Origin: Halorhodospira halochloris
GTDB taxonomy: Bacteria > Pseudomonadota > Gammaproteobacteria > Nitrococcales > Halorhodospiraceae
Reading direction: 5' to 3'
Assembly: GCF_002356555.2 (NCBI RefSeq)
Contig: NZ_AP017372.2
Coordinates: 1,714,501-1,778,500, forward strand
Length of the DNA: 64,000 nt
Below are positions 3,114 through 37,300 of the stretch, piece by piece. The stretch's first letter is position 1. Every line of letters begins with the position of its first letter. The notes below the pieces were generated by a model. It was not told where the DNA came from, made no database searches, and saw only the letters and a list, made by a program, of their open reading frames with translations. The position numbers and the translations under genes are program-made.

Positions 3114-3266
3114 GGGGAACTCCTAAAACTCCCCACTGAGCCTAGAACTGCCCCGGTGTGTAAATCTTTTGACGCCAGAGATGCTGCCACGAAGCCTCCA
3201 GGGATGGGCTCACGGCGTCCTCCACACCGGAGCAGCCAGTCTTAGTGGGGAGTTTTTAGAAGCTCC
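3114..3266. repeat. Palindromic element copy R3
   Basis: Ends GGGGAACTCCTAAAACTCCC and GGGGAGTTTTTAGAAGCTCC; the inner arms pair at CGGTGTG/CACACCGG. The middle of the arms has drifted and no longer pairs fully. The centre is in the GCCTCCAGGGATGG orientation. It sits directly before the GGDEF gene. Confidence 0.75.
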
Positions 3267-3289
3267 TCATGGCAGCGGGGGGAGATAGC

Positions 3290-13454: not shown

Positions 13455-13607
13455 GGTGCACCTCTAAAGATTTTCCCGGAGCCATTATCTGCCCCGGGGT
13501 GGAAGTCTTGGCAACAGGGATGGCGTCCTGAAGCCTCCAGGGATGGATTCACGGCGTCCCCGACATCGGGGCAGATAATGGCTCCGGAAAAATCTTTAGA
13601 GGTTCCC
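13455..13607. repeat. Palindromic element copy R6
   Basis: Arms 13461-13496 and 13567-13602 pair over 36 bp with one mismatch; the variable segment is GGAGCCATTAT. The terminal part reads CCTCTAAAGATTTT instead of the usual CCTCTAAAAACTTC, and the other arm has changed to match. Its right end supplies the TAA stop of the next gene. Confidence 0.88.
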
Positions 13608-14820: not shown

Positions 14821-15034
14821 GGAACCCCAAAAACTCCCCCGGCGCAGATTGGCTCCGCGGGGGAAACCTCTAAACTTCCCCGGCGCCATCTTCTGCCCCG
14901 GTGTGGAGGACGCCGTGAATCCATCCCTGGAGGCTTCACGGCGCCATCCCTGGCGCCAAGCTCTCCAAAACGGGGCAGAAGATGGCACCGGGGAAGTTTT
15001 TAAAGGCACCCCGGGGAAGTTTTTCGAGGCGCCC
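14821..15034. repeat. Nested palindromic elements R7
   Basis: An inner copy (about 14866-15012) has the variable segment GGCGCCATCTT and the GACGCC orientation. It is bracketed by ends of an outer copy: GGAACCCCAAAAACTCCCCC on the left (14821) and GGGGAAGTTTTTCGAGGCGCC on the right (to 15034). The outer copy's own centre is missing. This suggests insertion of one copy in another, followed by loss. Confidence 0.8.
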
Positions 15035-24883: not shown

Positions 24884-26983
24884 CTAGTCACATCTACCAA
24901 AGACCCACAACAAAAACGCAAACCGCAGCGCCACCTCGTGCAGATAATCAAACCGTCCCCCAGGCCCAGAGTGGCCAGAGCTCATATGCGTCCAGAGTAA
25001 CAACGGATTATCATCAGTCTTAAGTGCACGCAGCCGGGCCACCCATTTGGCTGGCTCCCAGTAAGTTACACGCGGATCGGAGACCCCAGCGGTTACCAGT
25101 AACGGTGGGTATTCCTGCGCACAGACATTCTCATAAGGCGAGTAGCTAGATATATTCCGATAGGCCTGCTCATCCTCAATCGGGTTGCCCCACTCCGGCC
25201 ATTCAGGCGGCGTCAGGGGCAGCGTTGGATCGCTCATGGTATTAAGGACATCGACAAAAGGCACATCAGCGACAGCAGCACCGAACAACTCCGGGCGTTG
25301 ATTTAGCACCGCTCCTACTAGCATCCCGCCAGCCGATCCACCATGGACGATAAGCTTGCCAGCACTGGTGTAACCGGATTCAATTAAGTGCTCGGCGCAG
25401 GCAACATAGTCGCTAAAAGTATTCTGTTTGGCGAGCAGTTTCCCTTCCCGGTACCATCTGAAGCCGCGCTCTTTGCCGCCACGCACATGGGCAATGGCAA
25501 AAACAAAGCCACGATCCACAAGAGAGAAACGGTGCGGGGAAAAGCCGGCTGGCTGACTGATGCCATAAGCTCCATAACCGCTCAGTAGCACAGGAGTATC
25601 AGGTCCGGGCGTTAAGTCAGCTCGATATAGTAGAGAAACTGGCACCATTTCACCGTCGGGAGAATAAGCGTTAACTCGCTTGGCAACATAATCCGACGGG
25701 TCATGGCCACTAGGTATTTGCTGCTCCTTGCGCAGCTCCCGTTCCCCGGTGTCCATATCGTAATCAAAGACTTGGGTTGGTGTAGTCAATGACGAGTATT
25801 TGAAGCGCAGTATAGAGGTATCGAATTCGAGCCCGGGATCTAGGGCCAAGGCATAGGCCTGCTCGCTGAATTCCACCGTATGCTCTAGCCCATCCTCTAG
25901 GCCCCTGATGACAATCCGCGGTAGGGCATCTTCGCTCTCTAGACGCACTAGATAATCACTAAACAAAAGCATGTCATGAATCAAAACCCCCGAGCGGTGG
26001 GCAACCAACTCGTCCCATTCAGTCGCGGCCTCACCTCCCAGTTCCGCGCTGACAATACGAAAATCCTCAGCATTATGGTTGGTCAGAATCAGCCAGTGCT
26101 CACCGCAATCAGTGACGCTGTACTCCACGTCTTTTTGACGTGGAATAAGGCATCTAAAACCTGCCTCCGGCACCTCGGCAGGAGCTACATGGACCTCTGA
26201 GGTCGTATGATCATGAGTCTCTATGAGCAGAAAACGGCGACTTTCGGTACGCCCTAAATTGACAAAAAAACCGGCGTCGCGCTCTTCATAGACTAGGGTA
26301 TCGTGGCGGGAGTTATCCCCAATCCGGTGACGATAGACCCATCGCGGGCGATGTGAGTCATCGAGAACGGTATACAGTATAGTATCTGATCGGCTCGACC
26401 AGACAATATCGCCGCGCGCCTGCTCGATGCTGTCGCTCAGTAGTTCACCGCTGAAGAGATCCTTGATACGGATGGTATATGATTCTGCTCCGGTAGTATC
26501 TATGGCAAAGGCAAGATAACGGTGATCATCACTATGTACACACTCACCAATATCGAAGTAGTCATATCCAGAAGCCTCAGCATCACCATCAAGCAGAATC
26601 TCTTCAAACTGCTCACCCATGCCTGCTTTACGCCGACAAATTAATGGATGCTGCCCTCCCTCGCGGTAGCGAGTATAATATTCATAGTACCCATCGGGCT
26701 CAGGAACCGAAGAGTCTGCCTCTTTTATCCGTCCTCGCAGTTCGCTGAATAGTCTTTCGCGGAGATCTTTTTGGCCGCGGAGAACAGCTTCGGTATAGCT
26801 ATTTTCAGCCTCCAGGTAGCTACGAATATCCTCCTGCAGACGGCTCGGATCGAGCATGGCGGCTCGCCAGTCGGGATCTCGTAGCCAAGCGTAAGGGTCA
26901 CTGCGCTGCTCGCCGAACTGCTCAATAGTGTGCTGCTGCTGTGCCGCTCGCGGCGGCCGGGAAGGTGGTAAGTGTTGACTCAT
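24884..26983 (-). CDS. ptrB: Oligopeptidase B (S9A prolyl oligopeptidase family)
   Basis: 699 residues: an N-terminal beta-propeller (about 75-410) and a C-terminal alpha/beta hydrolase. The catalytic triad is S550 (HGGSAGG), D636 (GVSDPRVTYWEPAKW) and H671 (MSSGHSG). The acidic residues around the active site and the WEP.KW motif fit oligopeptidase B, which cleaves short peptides after Arg or Lys in the cytosol. No signal peptide is seen. It is monocistronic, with repeat copies R8 and R9 at its two ends. Confidence 0.9.
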   Translation of the reverse strand: MSQHLPPSRPPRAAQQQHTIEQFGEQRSDPYAWLRDPDWRAAMLDPSRLQEDIRSYLEAENSYTEAVLRGQKDLRERLFSELRGRIKEADSSVPEPDGYYEYYTRYREGGQHPLICRRKAGMGEQFEEILLDGDAEASGYDYFDIGECVHSDDHRYLAFAIDTTGAESYTIRIKDLFSGELLSDSIEQARGDIVWSSRSDTILYTVLDDSHRPRWVYRHRIGDNSRHDTLVYEERDAGFFVNLGRTESRRFLLIETHDHTTSEVHVAPAEVPEAGFRCLIPRQKDVEYSVTDCGEHWLILTNHNAEDFRIVSAELGGEAATEWDELVAHRSGVLIHDMLLFSDYLVRLESEDALPRIVIRGLEDGLEHTVEFSEQAYALALDPGLEFDTSILRFKYSSLTTPTQVFDYDMDTGERELRKEQQIPSGHDPSDYVAKRVNAYSPDGEMVPVSLLYRADLTPGPDTPVLLSGYGAYGISQPAGFSPHRFSLVDRGFVFAIAHVRGGKERGFRWYREGKLLAKQNTFSDYVACAEHLIESGYTSAGKLIVHGGSAGGMLVGAVLNQRPELFGAAVADVPFVDVLNTMSDPTLPLTPPEWPEWGNPIEDEQAYRNISSYSPYENVCAQEYPPLLVTAGVSDPRVTYWEPAKWVARLRALKTDDNPLLLWTHMSSGHSGPGGRFDYLHEVALRFAFLLWVFGRCD

Positions 26984-27032
26984 GTTGTTCTTGTTCCTCC
27001 TGTGAGACTAGGGAGTTTTGAGATGCCCCTTA

Positions 27033-27180
27033 GGGAACCTCTAACCCCCCCCCTGAGCCACTCATCTGCCCCGGTGTGGAGATCTTGGCGCCAGGGATGG
27101 CACCATGAAACCTCCAGGGATGGAGTGAAGGCGAGCTCCACACCGGGGCGATAGGTGGCTCCGGGTAGTTCGAGGTTCAT
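27033..27180. repeat. Palindromic element copy R9
   Basis: The left end is GGGAACCTCTAAC followed by a run of C, with variable segment TGAGCCACTCAT. The inner arms (CCCCGGTGTGGAG against CTCCACACCGGGG) pair perfectly and the outer arms imperfectly. The centre is in the TCTTGGCGCCAGGG orientation. It lies between the ptrB start and the thioesterase stop. Confidence 0.82.
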
Positions 27181-27193
27181 CTTAGGAAAAACA

Positions 27194-27655
27194 TTATTCC
27201 GGTGGAGTGAGCAGAAAATGACCGCGAGCAGCCGCGATCGGTCGCTGCCTGTTGCCTTGCCACGCTAGCGCATGAACATTAGCAACTCGCCTCCCCTGTC
27301 GGCGGATCTCTACACCAGCAAAGGTCTTCTCCTGCGCCCCGCGACGTAAGTAATCAATGTGAAAGTTGACTATCCGAGGCAAATACCGGCTCTCCCCGTT
27401 CCATAGGATCTGCACAATCGAGGCGTGCTCGAGGAAGGCACCCAGCAAACCACCGTGTAGAGAGCCGCTCCCAGGCCGGCCGATAAGATCATCCCGATAG
27501 GGCATGCTCATCAGCAGCTGCCCCGGATCCGCACCCGAGCATTCATCTGGCTCTACCTCAATACCAATCAGACTAGCGTAAGGGAACATTCGAGATAGCG
27601 CCGAGTAATCTTCCTCAGCGCGGGCAGCACGCACCTGTTCAAGCAACTCAACCAT
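27194..27655 (-). CDS. PaaI-family hotdog thioesterase
   Basis: A 153-residue protein with the hotdog-fold signature SLHGGLLGAFLEHASIVQ, an active-site-type loop in this family, and DYLRRGAQEKTFAGVEIRRQGRRVANVHA. Such enzymes hydrolyse acyl-CoA or aryl-CoA thioesters. It overlaps the end of a second thioesterase gene by 8 nt, so the pair may form one functional unit. The substrate cannot be told from sequence. Confidence 0.8.
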   Translation of the reverse strand: MVELLEQVRAARAEEDYSALSRMFPYASLIGIEVEPDECSGADPGQLLMSMPYRDDLIGRPGSGSLHGGLLGAFLEHASIVQILWNGESRYLPRIVNFHIDYLRRGAQEKTFAGVEIRRQGRRVANVHALAWQGNRQRPIAAARGHFLLTPPE

Positions 27656-28226
27656 TCTGTGCTACCTCATCTCTCAGGCGCATGAAGGCACTCATGCTAG
27701 TCGCAAATGGATATGCCGGGTCTTCTTGGTAAGCCGAACAACGGGCAAAGGCAACTTCACGGCCAACCCGGTAACACTCAGCACGGGCATAAACGTCACG
27801 CCCCGGAGCTGCCGGGCGCAGATGATCAATCCGCAAATCAAGGGTTACTATTCCCTCTTGGCCGCCTGTAGCGAGCATGACCGAGGCCCCGCTGCTCTGA
27901 TCTATAATGGTAGTTATAACCCCACCGTGGAGGTATCCTGTTTGCGGATTGCCCACTAACTCGGGGCGGTATGCCACTTTTGAGACCACAAAATCGCTGC
28001 CCAAATCGACTAGCTCTAGACCTATCAGTGAGCCGTGGGGTGAGTCCTGAAACAGTCTACGGGCTATCTCAAACTCTACCGGGGGGTCTTCAGTAGGATA
28101 ACCGCAATCCTGTGTGGGTTGGTGATTACCTCGCTCTCTCAAAATTGGTTCCCTTTTTGCTAATGGGGTAGTAACAAGTAGTCTTGTCCTACTCTGAAGT
28201 ATCTTCGGGGGCCTCGGTAAGAACAA
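27648..28226 (-). CDS. PaaI-family hotdog thioesterase
   Basis: The product carries YLHGGVITTIIDQSSGASVML and DHLRPAAPGRDVYARAECYRVGREVAFA, the same hotdog pattern as its neighbour, and PYRPELVGN before it. The open frame begins at 28226 and overlaps motB by 38 nt. A TTG at 28142 preceded by AAGGG would give a 164-residue protein of normal family length and may be the true start. The two tandem paralogues probably arose by duplication and may form a heteromer. Confidence 0.78.
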   Translation of the reverse strand: MFLPRPPKILQSRTRLLVTTPLAKREPILRERGNHQPTQDCGYPTEDPPVEFEIARRLFQDSPHGSLIGLELVDLGSDFVVSKVAYRPELVGNPQTGYLHGGVITTIIDQSSGASVMLATGGQEGIVTLDLRIDHLRPAAPGRDVYARAECYRVGREVAFARCSAYQEDPAYPFATSMSAFMRLRDEVAQNG

Positions 28227-28932
28227 CTTCTACACGGCGATTCTTGGCCCTATTCTCATCACTAGTGTTTGGCACCAGCGGTCGCGTATCGGCATGCCCC
28301 TGAGCCACCATTCGTCGCGACGGCAGTCCACTTTCTTGAAAGACGTGAACTACCGATACCGCCCTGGCCGAAGATAGTTCAAAGTTAGAGCGAAAACGAT
28401 CTGTCTGAATGGGAAGATCGTCTGTGTGTCCTGCAACTCTTATAATACCGGGAGTCTCTGCCAATACACCGGCGATCCTCTCGAGCACCGGTAAGAAATC
28501 ATCCTGCAGTTCCTTTCTGCCTAACTCAAATGCCGCATGGTCCTCGAAACGCAACAACACTCCCTCATCATCTTCCCCTAATTGAATTACCCCATCTTCG
28601 ATGTCATCTGCCAAGGCTTCGCGTAAGGCGTCCCGAATCTCATCGAGCTGGGTATATTCTGGCTGATCAATGTCATTTATTTGGGGTCTTTCAATAGATG
28701 CAAAATCACCATCAAAATCTACCAATGAGGGGGCCGGACGAGGGGTATCATCCCCTACCGCGGACGGACCAAGCACTTCACGCAAAGAGTCAGCCATCTG
28801 CTGATAGCGCAAATTATCTATGGTTGACATCGAGTAAAGCATAACAAAAAACACTACCAGCACCGCCATTAAGTCGGCAAAAGTCGTCATCCACCGCGGC
28901 GCCCCTGCGTCTTTTCTGCCCCATATCTTCAT
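28189..28932 (-). CDS. motB: MotB/PomB-type flagellar stator protein
   Basis: 247 residues. A single span (APRWMTTFADLMAVLVVFFVMLYSMS) includes the ion-binding Asp of TFADLM. A linker follows, then an OmpA-like peptidoglycan-binding domain (IRVAGHTDDLPI, NFELSSARAVSVVHVF, RMVAQGHADTRPLVPN, NRRVEVVL). It anchors the stator to the wall and forms the ion channel with MotA. The short N terminus and TFADLM resemble PomB, so Na+ coupling is possible but not proven. ATG 28932 is chosen; the upstream frame is element sequence. Confidence 0.9.
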   Translation of the reverse strand: MKIWGRKDAGAPRWMTTFADLMAVLVVFFVMLYSMSTIDNLRYQQMADSLREVLGPSAVGDDTPRPAPSLVDFDGDFASIERPQINDIDQPEYTQLDEIRDALREALADDIEDGVIQLGEDDEGVLLRFEDHAAFELGRKELQDDFLPVLERIAGVLAETPGIIRVAGHTDDLPIQTDRFRSNFELSSARAVSVVHVFQESGLPSRRMVAQGHADTRPLVPNTSDENRAKNRRVEVVLTEAPEDTSE

Positions 28933-28934
28933 AA

Positions 28935-29011
28935 GGGAACCCCTAAAACTCCCCTGGTAGCCTCCCAACTGCCCCGGTGTGGAGGCCTTATCGCCAGGGA
29001 TGGCACCATGA
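28935..29011. repeat. Truncated palindromic element R10a (left half)
   Basis: Left end GGGAACCCCTAAAACTCCCC, the inner arm CTGCCCCGGTGTGGAGG and the first part of the centre up to GGGATGGCACCATGA, where copy R10b begins. The right arm is missing apart from a short GAAGCGTCCAG-like remnant after R10b. Confidence 0.85.
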
Positions 29012-29163
29012 GGGAACCTCTAAAAACTTCGCCGGCGCCATCATCTGCCCCGGAGTGGAGGTCTTGGCACCATGGACGGCGCCATGAAGCCTCCAGGGAT
29101 GGATTCACGGCGTCCTCCACTCCGGGGCAGATGATGGCGCCGGCGAAGTTTTTAGAGGCACCT
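29012..29163. repeat. Palindromic element R10b, intact, nested in R10a
   Basis: The arms 29017-29061 and 29114-29158 are perfectly complementary over 45 bp around a 52-nt centre. The variable segment is GGCGCCATCAT. ATGA occurs directly on both sides (29008-29011 and 29164-29167), a candidate target duplication. It lies between the motA stop and motB start. Confidence 0.92.
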
Positions 29164-29199
29164 ATGAAGCGTCCAGATTAACGAAAGTCAGCATGCCAC

Positions 29200-30009
29200 T
29201 CATCTTCCACCCTGATTCGGATCAAATGCCTGATTACCTTCGGCTCCCTGCCCAGGGACATCTAAACCGCGATGATTGCGGGGCAGGTAATTGGACAGCA
29301 ACTCGTCAACCAAGCGTGAATTATAGCGGTTGTGGATGCAATCTACTGCTTCAATAATAAGAGATTGATTAACATACTCATTCTGAGCACGCATCTCCAG
29401 ATTGTCAGCTATAGGAATGGCGATTAGTTGGGCAAAGACCGCCCCGTACAGGGTTGTCAGCAGCGCTACAGCCATTCCTGGACCAATCGCTTCAGGGTCT
29501 TCCAGATTGCCGAGCATTTGCACCAAGCCAACCAGGGTACCAATCATACCGAAAGCAGGTGCCTGCTCACCGATACTGCGAAATATTCTCTGCCCTACCT
29601 CATGACGCTGAGTCGAAAGCTCCTGCTCTTCGCGCAGTATCTTTTGGATAAGCTGCAGATCGACTCCATCTACTAGTAGGTCAATGGCCTTGCGGAAAAA
29701 AGGGTTGCGGATGTCAACATCTTCCAGGGCCAATATGCCATGCTTGCGCGCTACTGCTGTTAACTCTTTGGTCTGCTCAATCAACTCACGAGGCTCTTCC
29801 TTCTGAGTAGTAAAGGCTAAAGATGCCAGTTTTACCGAGTTGATTACTTGCCAAAAGGAAAACTTTATCAAGGTTGCCGAGAAGGTACCCCCGAAGACGA
29901 TCAGCACTGCCGGCAAATATAAAAACTGAGCACCCTCACCGCTGGCGGCAATGGCCGTAAATATAACCGTTATGCCAACCAACAACCCGGTAAAGGACGC
30001 TTTATCCAA
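29200..30009 (-). CDS. motA: MotA/PomA-type flagellar stator protein
   Basis: 269 residues with four spans, the LPAVLIVFGGTFSATLIKF segment, a large cytosolic loop (REEQELSTQRHEVGQRIFRSIGEQAPAFGMIGTLVGLVQML) and GPGMAVALLTTLYGAVFAQLIAIPIADNLE, the PomA/MotA channel signature. It forms the stator ion channel with MotB and generates torque at the rotor. It precedes motB, from which it is separated by about 267 bp of nested palindromic repeat. Confidence 0.92.
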   Translation of the reverse strand: MDKASFTGLLVGITVIFTAIAASGEGAQFLYLPAVLIVFGGTFSATLIKFSFWQVINSVKLASLAFTTQKEEPRELIEQTKELTAVARKHGILALEDVDIRNPFFRKAIDLLVDGVDLQLIQKILREEQELSTQRHEVGQRIFRSIGEQAPAFGMIGTLVGLVQMLGNLEDPEAIGPGMAVALLTTLYGAVFAQLIAIPIADNLEMRAQNEYVNQSLIIEAVDCIHNRYNSRLVDELLSNYLPRNHRGLDVPGQGAEGNQAFDPNQGGR

Positions 30010-30059
30010 ATCATACCCCCTAGATCAAATATATGATCTGTTTTCCATTCCAATCATAA

Positions 30060-30614
30060 TCAGGAGTCTAGAACCTTAATAGCAGCTCGCAGATAGGCGA
30101 AGGCAGAGTAGAGAGTAAGGATTGCTGCCAACCAGATCAGCACCACTCCAAATTCCGGTATGGGCACCCCGGCGATAGGCTCGCCATAGAGCAACATCAT
30201 TATTGCCGCCATCTGTGCAGCTGTCTTTACCTTACCTAGCTGACTCACAGCGACACTGGCCCTCTTGCCGAGTTCGGCCATCCACTCGCGCAGCGCCGAT
30301 ACCGCTATCTCACGTCCTATGATAACGGCTGCAGGAATCGCCATCCACAGACCGGGATAGAGGGCTACCAAAGCAACCAGCGCCACAGCAACCATCAGCT
30401 TATCCGCAACCGGATCAAGAAAGGCGCCAAATTCAGATGACTGTTCAAGGCGTCGTGCAAGGTAGCCATCCAACCAATCAGTAATTGCTGCTAAAGCAAA
30501 TACCGCTACCGTCAAGATATTGGTCCATGGTGCGGGCAACAGAAAGCACAGCCCAAAGACGGGTATCAGTGCTATCCGCATTAGTGTTAAGGCGGTAGGC
30601 AATGTTATCTGCAT
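30060..30614 (-). CDS. pgsA: CDP-diacylglycerol--glycerol-3-phosphate 3-phosphatidyltransferase
   Basis: 184 residues with the CDP-alcohol phosphotransferase motif DWLDGYLARRLEQSSEFGAFLDPVADK and about four spans. It makes phosphatidylglycerol phosphate, the committed step to PG and cardiolipin. ATG 30614 is used; the frame opens at a TTG six nt earlier. It follows uvrC by 9 nt, the usual gammaproteobacterial uvrC-pgsA order. Confidence 0.95.
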   Translation of the reverse strand: MQITLPTALTLMRIALIPVFGLCFLLPAPWTNILTVAVFALAAITDWLDGYLARRLEQSSEFGAFLDPVADKLMVAVALVALVALYPGLWMAIPAAVIIGREIAVSALREWMAELGKRASVAVSQLGKVKTAAQMAAIMMLLYGEPIAGVPIPEFGVVLIWLAAILTLYSAFAYLRAAIKVLDS

Positions 30615-30623
30615 TGTCAAATC

Positions 30624-32438
30624 CTAGCCATGTAACGCATCGTAGATTCGCTGTGCAAGCGAGCGGCTTATGCCGGGCACCGCTGTTAAATCATCGACTC
30701 CGGCCTGACGCACACCCTGAACCCCGCCAAAACGCTTAAGCAGATTTTGGCGGCGTTTCGGCCCAAGCCCCGGAATCTCTTCCAACATCGACTCGCGCCG
30801 ACTCTTCGCCCGCCGCTGGCGATGCCCACCGAGAGCGAAGCGGTGCGCCTCGTCACGAATTTGCTGTAACAGGTGCAGTGCCGGAGAATCCGAGGACAAC
30901 TCCACTTCTATACTGCCATTAGCAAGCAACAAGGTCTCCTCGCCTGGGCGGCGTTCCGGCCCTTTAGCAATCCCCATCGTCGCTACCCCCTCTACGCCTA
31001 GCTCGTCGAGCACACCCTGCGCGCGAGCCAATTGACCCTTGCCACCATCAATTAAGAGCAGATCGGGTAGTGCCACATCACCGCTCTTTACCCTCTGATA
31101 GCGCCGCCGCAAAGCCTGTTCCATGGCTGCATAGTCATCTCCTGGCTCAATCCCCCGAATATTGAAGCGCCGGTAATCACTTTTCAACGGCCCGTCCTGA
31201 TTGAAAACCACACATGAGGCTACTGTTGCCTCACCGCCGGTATGGCTGATATCGAAACACTCGATTCGCTGCGGCGGGCTATCCACATCCAGCACCTCGG
31301 CCAGGGCATTATAGCGCTTTCGCTGATTAGCTGCCGAAGCACTCCGTGAAGCGAGTGCATAGCGGGCGTTCTCCTCTGCCATCTCGACCCACCGCCGCCG
31401 CTGGCCGCGCACCCGATATCGAATTGCCACCTGTGCTCCGCTCGACGTTCGCAGCACCTCGCTGAGTAGCTTTCGATGCGGGACTGGGCTATTGAGCACC
31501 AGTTCTGTCGGTACTTCGCGATCTAAGTAGTATTGCGCCAAAAAACCGGCCAGCACCTCCGCTTCACGCGCCCCGGGCGGAACCCGCGGGAAGAAACTTT
31601 GATTACCCAAACCACTGCCCGAACGCACGAAAAAAACCTGGATGCAGGCACTATCCCCCTCCATTACGCAGGCTACAACATCCATATCATCGTCGCGATC
31701 ACGGGCCACATACTGCTGCTGCTGAATCTGCTGCAGAGTAGCGATGCGATCACGCAGTCGGGCTGCATCCTCGAAGCGTAACTGCTCGGCAGCCTCGTCC
31801 ATTCGTGCCGCCAACTCATCAATAACTTGTGCCGAGCGCCCCTCTAGAAAACCAATAACGTGTCTTACCTCTTGAGCATAGTCTTGCTCATTAATATAAC
31901 CCACACAAGGTGCAGTACAACGTCTTATTTGATACTGCAAGCAGGGTCGCGACCGATTATTGAAAAAACTGTCCCGACACTGACGAATCGGAAACACTTT
32001 CTGGAGATAGGCGAGTGTCTGGCGAACCGCATTAGAGCTTGGATACGGACCAAAATAACGCCCCTTAGTGCCACGCGCACCACGGTGGAAAGCCAGTCGC
32101 GGGAAGGGATGATTGGTAGAAAGGTATATATAGGGGTATGACTTATCGTCTCTTAGTAAGACATTGTAGCGGGGATGGTGCTCCTTAATCAGATGGCTCT
32201 CGAGTATAAGCGCTTCAGCTTCAGTATGGGTTACAGTGACCTCGAGATCGGCAATGCGCTCAACCATTCGGGCTGTCTTGATCGGCTTATTGGCAGTATT
32301 GAAATAACTAGCAACGCGGCGACGCAGACTCCGTGCTTTACCAACGTATATAACCTCGCCATCCTGGGCCAGCATCCTGTACACCCCGGGCCGCTCAGGC
32401 AGATTGCGCACCTTTTCTCTAAGCTCAGGACTGTACAC
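30624..32438 (-). CDS. uvrC: Excinuclease ABC subunit C
   Basis: 604 residues. GIY-YIG nuclease domain at the N terminus (GVYRMLAQDGEVIYVGKARSL), a UvrB-binding UVR segment (about 200-235), the RNase H-like endonuclease domain (ECFDISHTGGEATVASCVVF, LLIDGGKGQL) and a C-terminal helix-hairpin-helix pair (IPGLGPKRRQNLLKRFGG). It makes the 3' and 5' incisions in nucleotide excision repair. It is followed by pgsA and preceded by the GacA/UvrY-like gene, with a palindromic element between. Confidence 0.97.
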   Translation of the reverse strand: MYSPELREKVRNLPERPGVYRMLAQDGEVIYVGKARSLRRRVASYFNTANKPIKTARMVERIADLEVTVTHTEAEALILESHLIKEHHPRYNVLLRDDKSYPYIYLSTNHPFPRLAFHRGARGTKGRYFGPYPSSNAVRQTLAYLQKVFPIRQCRDSFFNNRSRPCLQYQIRRCTAPCVGYINEQDYAQEVRHVIGFLEGRSAQVIDELAARMDEAAEQLRFEDAARLRDRIATLQQIQQQQYVARDRDDDMDVVACVMEGDSACIQVFFVRSGSGLGNQSFFPRVPPGAREAEVLAGFLAQYYLDREVPTELVLNSPVPHRKLLSEVLRTSSGAQVAIRYRVRGQRRRWVEMAEENARYALASRSASAANQRKRYNALAEVLDVDSPPQRIECFDISHTGGEATVASCVVFNQDGPLKSDYRRFNIRGIEPGDDYAAMEQALRRRYQRVKSGDVALPDLLLIDGGKGQLARAQGVLDELGVEGVATMGIAKGPERRPGEETLLLANGSIEVELSSDSPALHLLQQIRDEAHRFALGGHRQRRAKSRRESMLEEIPGLGPKRRQNLLKRFGGVQGVRQAGVDDLTAVPGISRSLAQRIYDALHG

Positions 32439-32474
32439 TTAGCCCGATCCTCCCGACACTTATGACTCCTTGAA

Positions 32475-32623
32475 GGAACCTCTAAAATCGCCGGCGTCAC
32501 CATCTGCCCCGGTGTGGAGGTCTTGGCGCCAGGGATGGCGCCATGAAGCCTCCAGGGATGGATTCACGGCATCCTCCACACCGGGGCAGATGGTGACGCC
32601 GGCGAAGTTTTTAGAGGTTCCCT
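32475..32623. repeat. Palindromic element copy R11
   Basis: The arms 32489-32520 and 32573-32604 are perfectly complementary over 32 bp, with a 52-nt centre and the variable segment GGCGTCACCAT. The left terminal part has a small deletion (TCTAAAATCGCC against GGCGAAGTTTTTAGA). It separates the uvrY-like gene from uvrC. Confidence 0.92.
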
Positions 32624-32649
32624 TAAGGACAAATTCTATTTATCAACAG

Positions 32650-33312
32650 CTAGTTATTATTCCTAAGCAGAGCAGCGCCAGGCGAAACGTCCATGCCGTA
32701 TTCAATTGCTAGGCGCACTAACTCAGCCTGATTTTTTACCTTGAGCCTTTCAAAGAGCTTTGCCTTATGGTTGCTGACAGTCTTTGGGCTCAGACACAGG
32801 TCAGCAGCAATATGGGCATTTTTATAGCCACTTATTATCCCCATAAGCACTTCACACTGGCGTTTTGATAAGCCATCAAAAGGGTTGCTTACCTCACCAG
32901 CCAGGCTTCTAATAGAGAACCATTGAGTAATACGCGGATCTATGTGCGGCTGCCCCATAGATAGATCTCGAATTGCTGCCCAAAGGTCTTCTTGTCGGCA
33001 GTTCTTTGTCAAACATCCAATCGCTCCTGCCCGAAGGGCCAGGGTTGCAAACGAATTCTGCACATTATTTATAATCACTAGTATGGCAGCATCTGGGGCA
33101 TGACGAATAATGGCTTGCGTCGCTTCTAAGCCCCTCTGTGGATCACTCCAATCTATCACAACCACATTTGGTTGGCTCTCTCTTACCCTAGCAGTAGCTT
33201 CGTTGATGCTGCTCGACATCGCCGTTACTTCAATATCTGCTTGTGAACAGATAAGATTTCCTAGTGCATCACAGTTGAGCTGATGCCAATCAACGACTAC
33301 TACTCTGATCAT
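32650..33312 (-). CDS. uvrY: GacA/UvrY-like response regulator with altered receiver pocket
   Basis: 220 residues: an N-terminal receiver and a LuxR-type HTH (about 148-205: GLSKRQCEVLMGIISGYKNAHIAADLCLSPKTVSNHKAKLFERL). LCLSPKTV and synteny with uvrC-pgsA mark it as the GacA/UvrY orthologue, which in gammaproteobacteria activates small RNAs of the Csr/Rsm system. The phospho-acceptor D54 and K103 remain, but the acidic pair DD is DW (D8, W9) and the usual Thr is in an IINN segment. Metal binding or phosphorylation may be altered. Confidence 0.8.
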   Translation of the reverse strand: MIRVVVVDWHQLNCDALGNLICSQADIEVTAMSSSINEATARVRESQPNVVVIDWSDPQRGLEATQAIIRHAPDAAILVIINNVQNSFATLALRAGAIGCLTKNCRQEDLWAAIRDLSMGQPHIDPRITQWFSIRSLAGEVSNPFDGLSKRQCEVLMGIISGYKNAHIAADLCLSPKTVSNHKAKLFERLKVKNQAELVRLAIEYGMDVSPGAALLRNNN

Positions 33313-33447
33313 CCAAGCACTCCTTACTTACTCAAGGCTTGCTGTGAAGAAACCTGCAACCACCGCTTGCAGGAAGTGTCGCGCTCATGGGATTTCCCCA
33401 TAAAAAAAGAGCGCACATTCTCCAAATTTTGCCTAGGAGACGCAATA

Positions 33448-34302
33448 ATGGCCTACACGCCTATAAACACAGGCGATGTTATCGAGCTAGATCAAGCAAA
33501 GTGCACTAGTCATCCACTGAAAGACCTGTACATAGACAAAATCCCCCCTCCAGCAGTGGACCAACAAATCTGGTGTTATATGAGCTTCATCACCAGTCTG
33601 GATGGCCGGATCAGCCTCGATTTCGGCAAGGGCGCCTGTAGAGTTCCGCCACATCTCGCCAACCCCCGCGATTGGCGACTGTTTCAAGAATTGGCAGCAC
33701 ACAGCGACTGCCTGGTCACAACGAGTCGCTATCTGCGCGATCTACAAGCCGGCACGGCGCAAGCCCCACTACCTGTGGACGTGGCTTATCAGGATCTTAT
33801 CTATTGGCGACTCGACAACGGGCTCAACAAACAACCTGATGTGGCCGTAATCGGCAGCTCAAGCGACTTTACACTACCCGCAGAATGGTTTGATCAAGGC
33901 AGACTGGTTTGGCTCTTTGCTCCCTCTAACACTGAAGCAGACAACCTCAGGCGACACCACAGCCTAGGCGCTCAAGTGGCTGCTTACTTCACAGGCAACC
34001 GCGCAGGAGGTAAGACCATAACCAGTACCCTATCGAGGCTAGGTTATCGGCGGGTGTTTTTTATCGGCGGCCCCCAACTATCACACTCACTGCTCGCAGA
34101 TGACGCCCTCGATACGCTTTTTTTGACGATACGCCAGCGCATAATCGGCGGCCAACAAGGCAGCTACGAGAGCATTGTCGAAGGTCCAGCTTTAGAGCTG
34201 GGGTTAGATTTCGAGTTACGCTGGATATTTCTTGACACCGCAGCGGGCAATGAAGCCGGGCAGCTATTTACCCGTTACGACCGAATTCGCCATTCGGTAT
34301 AA
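33448..34302 (+). CDS. RibD C-terminal/dihydrofolate reductase-like protein
   Basis: 284 residues. MSFITSLDGRISL is the start of the RibD-C fold, followed by DCLVTTSRYLRDL, PDVAVIGSSSDF, TSTLSRLGYRRVFFIGGPQLSHSLL and TLFLTIRQRIIGG, the usual pattern for NADPH-binding reductases related to pyrimidine reductase. The N-terminal 50 residues are unlike RibD and there is no deaminase domain. Its substrate is unknown. ATG 33448 has TAGGAG upstream; the open frame begins at 33283. It is divergent from the uvrY-like gene. Confidence 0.75.
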   Translation: MAYTPINTGDVIELDQAKCTSHPLKDLYIDKIPPPAVDQQIWCYMSFITSLDGRISLDFGKGACRVPPHLANPRDWRLFQELAAHSDCLVTTSRYLRDLQAGTAQAPLPVDVAYQDLIYWRLDNGLNKQPDVAVIGSSSDFTLPAEWFDQGRLVWLFAPSNTEADNLRRHHSLGAQVAAYFTGNRAGGKTITSTLSRLGYRRVFFIGGPQLSHSLLADDALDTLFLTIRQRIIGGQQGSYESIVEGPALELGLDFELRWIFLDTAAGNEAGQLFTRYDRIRHSV

Positions 34303-34438
34303 AGCGGTTTGCCGGTGCCACTCATCTGCCCCGGTGAGGAGGTCTCGGCGCCAGGGATGGCGCCATGAATCCTCCAAGGATGGATTGACGGCGTCCTCCA
34401 CGCCGGGGCAGATGAGTGGCACCTGGGGAACCTGCTTA
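34302..34438. repeat. Palindromic element copy R12, shortened arms
   Basis: GGTGCCACTCATCTGCCCCG (34314-34333) pairs perfectly with 34404-34423; the outer ends AAGCGGTTTGCC and GGGGAACCTGCTT pair only partly and lack the CTCTAAAAAC terminus. The centre is in the TCTCGGCGCCAGGG orientation. It lies between the convergent RibD-like and fumC genes, starting at the last base of the stop codon. Confidence 0.85.
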
Positions 34439-34451
34439 GCTCAGGCCGGCA

Positions 34452-37300
<2,849 letters not shown>

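Follow-up and report, generated by a model that had tools for sequence, protein, structure and literature searches.

A 152-bp repeat nested in an older copy of its own family between motor genes of Halorhodospira halochloris: a probable IS5-type MITE with a YPAL-like core

The window analysed here is a stretch of 64,000 nucleotides, positions 1714501-1778500 of the H. halochloris genome (a single contig of 2,834,560 bases). The locus of interest is framed by two genes on the reverse strand, a MotB-type motor gene at 28189..28932, presumably motB, as synteny also suggests, and upstream of it a MotA-type gene at 29200..30009, presumably motA. With its start taken as the ATG at 28932, motB lies 2 bp from R10a, the older host copy of a repeat family. 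The first half of R10a occupies 28935..29011 of the forward strand, starts with GGGAACC and aligns to positions 1-76 of the family consensus (nhmmer match 28936-29011); its last bases, ATGA at 29008..29011, are the left copy of a 4-bp target duplication. It is followed on the same strand by R10b, an intact inserted element of 152 bp at 29012..29163 (GGGAACCTCTAAAA ... TTTTAGAGGCACCT), in which a three-way-junction core is flanked by long terminal inverted repeats; the structural model R1 described below matched it at 29046-29129 on the reverse strand (85.1 bits, E 5.3e-21). The right ATGA at 29164..29167, also read on the forward strand, opens the remnant of R10a 3' of R10b (ATGAAGCGTCCAG, forward strand, 29164..29176, consensus 73-85) and is followed by AGCGTCCAG of R10a.

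An earlier sequence-only reading had placed the interruption of the R10a centre by an intact 152-bp copy at 29011, and its coordinates hold. When R10b and one ATGA were taken out, R10a aligned to consensus 1-85 with a gap-free junction, and among removals of 0 to 8 bases that of 4 scored highest (103.5, against 98.5 for 3 and 94.0 for 0). The proposal that ATGA on both sides is a target duplication is thus borne out, since removal of 4 bases best restores the alignment of R10a to the consensus. R10a is an incomplete host, with only about 13 bases recognisable beyond the insertion. The element ends had been proposed as GGGAACC and GGCACCT; these are the correct ends, but the final T of R10b departs from the family, in which 55 of the 57 best-scoring copies carry C. 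A search of a plasmid collection with the 233-bp query gave no match.

The distance between motA and motB is 267 bp here (motB ATG at 28932), and in two related genomes, G002 and G003, the motA stop and the motB start overlap, so the R10a/R10b spacer is missing there. In a third relative, G001, about 254 bp of different sequence separate the two genes, and because of this different insert G001 is not a clean empty site. The G001 spacer (L222) contains an end-like sequence, GGGAACTTCGAAAAA, together with a tandem array of 9-bp GTGCCAGGC/GTGCCAAGC units.

The family was sampled by iterated profile searching of the window together with another 30 stretches of 20 kb each (664 kb in total), in which 148 copies were detected (112 of them at least 131 bp long, 15 within the window); the density is biased upward because the 20-kb stretches were picked around strong matches. 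Across the genome, with at most two mismatches allowed, a 27-nt pattern for the core was found at 204 places and the reversed control pattern at none, and extrapolation from the window density would give roughly 660 copies in the genome. Genes are mostly avoided, with 11 of the 148 copies lying mainly inside crude ORFs that make up 81% of the sample. For 137 of the 148 copies, the median distance to neighbouring ends was 41.5 bp for 3' ends (150 of them) and 107.5 bp for 5' ends (124), as measured from crude ORFs and with no random control. The orientation of copies beside tandem genes was weakly biased (46 opposite, 28 same).

In order to examine the flanks, 113 copies of at least 126 bp were aligned to a 152-bp consensus, which we wrote out with the pairing letter chosen at weak end positions, and were split into the 57 best-scoring copies and 56 others. 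The consensus arms pair over 50 bp, giving the terminal inverted repeats of a MITE, with pairs 4-149 and 5-148 unpaired in most copies. The prediction that 4-bp flanking duplications would recur at other copies proved right: exact duplications were present at 41 of the 57 best copies, where 1.35 were expected from all flank pairings, and at 11 of the remaining 56 (0.57 expected). This makes 52 of 113 copies in total, and 5 of the 12 aligned copies in the window, with 61 of 113 lacking an exact duplication (16 of the 57 best and 45 of the 56 others). Further copies of the window on the forward strand lie at 13456..13607 (duplication ATAG), 27033..27180 (CTTA) and 3115..3267 (CATG); one on the reverse strand, at 14862..15011, has CGGG at both flanks, and a near-full copy at 32474..32622 on the forward strand is flanked by TTGA and TTAA, with no exact duplication. 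Flank agreement exceeded expectation at exactly four positions and no excess was seen for the other duplication lengths tried at these ends, a constant length such as MITEs show. The duplicated sites share a context, C-NNNN-G, with C before the duplication in 42 and G after it in 40 of the 52.

The placement of the ends was examined by shifting them. The 41 exact matches among the 57 best copies fell to 33 and 32 when the ends were moved to either neighbouring position with unchanged spacing, and to 0-2 at the other one-base shifts; since the exact matches peak at these ends, the element boundary is not freely chosen. Pairs of such ends 40-900 bp apart and carrying an exact duplication numbered 46 in the 664 kb, of which 44 were known copies, and no MITE lacking the core but sharing these ends was found in that sample. 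One of the two extra pairs, L017 8385, looks like chance, and the other, L035 15925-16189, is made up of two copies. This 265-bp composite has CATA common to its outer ends, as if the fused pair had moved together.

Nested copies were sought by joining the flanks of each copy. A match across the junction was obtained for 14 of the 113, and 8 were accepted as nested, namely R10b in the window, L024 9912, L038 9253, L036 9716, L016 15871, L029 14137, L029 8315 and L015 9662. Not counted are five that lack an exact duplication (L015 9793, L035 16039, L019 5560, L028 4701 and L023 17765) and the window copy at 14862 (CGGG), which reached just 10.7 bits. All eight have an exact duplication, and when 0 to 8 bases were taken out the host alignment of each scored highest at 4; the margin over 3 removed bases is just 0.5 points in L038 and L029 8315, the latter being a weakly supported case. 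The nested copies supply internal empty sites, which stand in for a comparison of strains. The sequence-only reading of a mobile element had been staked on empty sites and on duplications elsewhere, and it came through on both, with the recurring exact duplications, the eight nested copies and the absence of the spacer in two relatives. As judged from sequence comparison, R10b was inserted with a 4-bp duplication, and such insertion is repeated across the family. The junctions of the nested copies lie at consensus 54-84 in seven of the eight and at 23 in one, and the same ATGA was struck in different hosts by R10b and L024 9912. New insertions may favour the core region of older copies, to judge from 7 of 8 nested cases with no null run.

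An explanation by recombination or replication slippage between neighbouring copies, with ATGA being merely shared repeat sequence, appears very improbable. ATGA does belong to the consensus at the junction, so that the repeat could supply it, and directly adjacent copies exist (L015 9662-9950). However, R10b is full-length with both ends present, and the exact duplications stand at the same junctions in 52 of 113 copies, only 9 of those 52 having matched the repeat across the joined flanks.

To look for an enzyme, the profile NF033581 (transpos_IS5_4) was used, and it detected a transposase over the cut-off in G001, one in G002 and a broken match in H. halochloris. The G001 element (L056 1256-3325) has the ends GGGCACCTCGAAAAACCA and CAGTTTTTCGAGCCTCCC, each with 3 mismatches against the 16 fixed positions of the MITE ends, a similarity that is short and imperfect, and it is flanked by CATT on both sides in the context C-CATT-G. 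It resembles the R10 family in its ends, its 4-bp duplication and its C-N4-G context, and so offers an IS of autonomous type with matching ends and duplication length, itself interrupted: two other ORFs, at 2141-2699, break its transposase, and we take these to resemble a BrnT/BrnA toxin-antitoxin pair. The G002 locus of NF033581 showed no pair of MITE-like ends. In H. halochloris, the broken match is followed by the right end CAGTTTATAGAGGCTCCC, 2 mismatches off, and no left end was recognised at this remnant.

Part of the L056 transposase used as a query found nothing in the H. halochloris genome, PF13586 gave no match there, and none of the six PF01609 loci examined showed a pair of matching ends (right-end-like matches at L053, one about 1.4 kb away at L048 and a five-mismatch left-like match at L049). 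An intact IS5-type helper was therefore not found in H. halochloris by the NF033581, PF01609, PF13586 and L056-transposase searches, and for this reason we make no claim of recent movement. An intact helper in the same genome is not strictly required of a MITE, and the helper is probably now broken or absent in H. halochloris.

Taken with the nested site, R10b is very probably a 152-bp non-autonomous MITE of IS5 type, inserted into R10a with a 4-bp duplication. We prefer this reading because the ends resemble those of a relative's IS5-type element which also has a 4-bp duplication. Unlike IS5-family elements, R10b at 152 bp is too short for a transposase. The enzyme class would accordingly be supplied by analogy: the resembling ends, the 4-bp duplication and the target context of L056 point to an IS5-type enzyme. 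A DDE transposase of this type would act in trans on the ends of R10b (GGGNNCCTCTAAAAACT...), a 4-bp staggered cut would be made at a C-NNNN-G-like target inside the older R10a, and gap repair would duplicate ATGA around the inserted element.

The core of the element is not confined to this genome. With the consensus as blastn query, 30 of 369 genomes of the class were hit, H. halochloris included, and elsewhere it was mainly the middle of the element that matched. The 27-nt core pattern occurred in 20 of 398 genomes of the phylum, all 20 in Gammaproteobacteria, and in at least 119 stretches of named genomes; among the 80 matches listed, the titles were those of gammaproteobacteria or unspecified Proteobacteria. 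These 80 loci yielded 76 core places with sufficient flank, and alignment A1 was made from the 38 that share the most frequent hairpin length; it folds into two hairpins and a stem whose arms vary. The core is characterised by these two hairpins with similar loops, a GTGAA bulge and a GCC/GGC stem. Model R1, for which 38 sequences were used with Yersinia and Sodalis excluded, matched 14 places in the window at E values down to 1.5e-22, one of these places being R10b, and it also matched three places in G001, one stretch of Yersinia (L155) and one of Sodalis (L110). At E 1e-6 or better it was found in 73 of 369 class genomes and 65 of 272 genera, by the E cut-off only. The stretches L103, L137 and L170 each carry two core copies with differing but self-complementary arms, so the arms vary within one genome.

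The arms were then compared for covariation. In H. halochloris, 85.2% of the cells of 50 arm pairs in 113 copies were Watson-Crick, against 75.2% with the arms dealt among copies, and 394 cells were compensated, against a mean of 128 and a maximum of 163 in 200 shuffles. Selection on the arms at the RNA level was considered and set aside, as the 195 G-T and 206 A-C cells, in the orientation used, showed no surplus of wobble pairs, although the test would be blurred if the direction of transcription were random. The covariation fits matching of the arms at the DNA level, or subfamily founders, better than RNA pairing, the copies being related by descent.

In A1, 90.2% of 1140 cells pair (59.4% shuffled), 383 cells are changed on both sides (127.5 shuffled) and the covariation score is 0.762 (0.209 shuffled), values reached by none of 500 shuffles; sliding the partners by one column lowered pairing to 39-50%. 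No excess was seen in A1 for the number of pairs with both-side change (25 against 23.8 shuffled, reached by 148 of 500) or for further pair types (68 against 73.9, reached by 491 of 500). The arms of A1 were positioned by complementarity, which favours helix 1, and the letters of the first hairpin were constrained by the search pattern; the second hairpin and pair 43-68 were not so placed. Pair 43-68, between CTYGA and ACR, is T-A in 20 sequences and C-G in 18, switching together in all 38, and apparently closes the second hairpin. Helix 1 holds 10 G-U and 32 A-C cells, which if anything favours the opposite strand, the sequences being related. Within the arms, 7 of 608 cells are changed on one side and 83 are unpaired, with few wobble intermediates.

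Repeats with this core have been known in Yersinia, as YPAL (Yersinia palindromic sequence) or RU-2, since 2006, and the study of that year reportedly found insertion directly 3' of stop codons. In the section of a 2007 review that deals with them, YPAL/RU-2 elements are about 168 bp long, with 3-26 bp duplications, internal inverted repeats and both empty and filled sites, and movement of such elements by a transposase is given as hypothesised without experimental support (PMC2229807). The relevant passages of other sources list YPAL families for Y. pestis (PMC2267715) and, in one review, place Ysr224 among the most prevalent sRNAs (PMC9029176), and the RU-2 sequence printed in a section of PMC2759123 has, by eye, the same core as its middle. 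The Rfam family Ysr224 (RF02770) exceeds its gathering score in the stretches of Yersinia (L155 5278-5384) and Sodalis (L110 7247-7352). Over window positions 26500-35000 its model reported two copies at 21.8 and 21.2 bits (E 0.25 and 0.36; gathering 70), and R10b was not reported at E up to 1. Another candidate, TwoAYGGAY, had no Rfam match in the Stenotrophomonas loci, which gave sub-threshold Ysr224 matches instead; until then, the two weak matches in the window had seemed to be noise.

YPAL/RU-2/Ysr224 and the R10 family share core sequence and fold, both are found by R1 and both are mostly intergenic. The R10 interior is probably a conserved three-way-junction core of the YPAL/RU-2/Ysr224 kind, carried between IS5-type ends in this lineage. 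In the open-licence literature, no paper was found that ties the core to other gammaproteobacteria or to IS5, and the main text of a 2024 review of MITEs is without YPAL (PMC10969869). The R10 family also resembles RUP, Correia/NEMIS and ERIC, which according to the section of the 2007 review on them are short, have inverted repeats and target duplications and occur in many copies, the RUP ends resembling those of an IS; these have terminal repeats of 7-24 bp and TA termini (PMC2229807), whereas R10 has arms that pair along some 50 bp around a class-wide core.

A possible but doubtful extension is that the real unit is the core and not the MITE, and that it has spread through Gammaproteobacteria within differing, largely complementary arms, carried by different mobilisers of which the IS5-type one acts in this lineage. 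With so few wobble intermediates in the arms, it would be as if the core had entered existing palindromes, or as if one arm had been recopied from the other.

That the repeats are moved by the mechanism of YPAL itself, with variable duplications and not by an IS5-type transposase, seems most unlikely in spite of the common core. YPAL is reported in the section cited (PMC2229807) to have inverted repeats that are internal and duplications that vary from 3 to 26 bp; neither was found in the R10 family, which has 4-bp duplications, repeats reaching the ends and IS5-like termini. In other genomes, the flanks of core copies, taken where we had set the arm ends, likewise gave no clear excess of duplications in 59 of the 76 rows, the 17 with short arms or long inserts being dropped: at least 7 shared flank bases were seen in 5 copies against 1.9 expected (null maximum 6), and at least 6 in 10 against 7.7. 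Variable duplications as in YPAL are still compatible with this flank test, since the arm ends were set by local alignment. That these are REP/REPIN-type palindromes mobilised by a Y1 (RAYT) transposase deserves almost no credence. Six Y1_Tnp matches do occur in the genome, and the elements are palindromes that mostly avoid crude ORFs, but duplications of 4 bp and ends like those of IS5 are typical of DDE enzymes, and Y1 enzymes are not known to make a target duplication.

For the IS5-type MITE reading, the combination of a YPAL-type core, candidate IS5-type ends, a 4-bp duplication and self-nesting provides a testable helper and target rule. The presence of the core in so many of the sampled genomes of the class (the 73 of 369 above) suggests that what Rfam lists as the sRNA Ysr224 is a mobile repeat spread over the class. 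Since the Ysr224 family matches the core of such a repeat, tallies of this sRNA per genome may in fact count repeats. In one genome of 5.1 Mb (G257), a first look with the consensus gave 432 candidates, 2 of which were scored, and these may represent a large expansion of core repeats.
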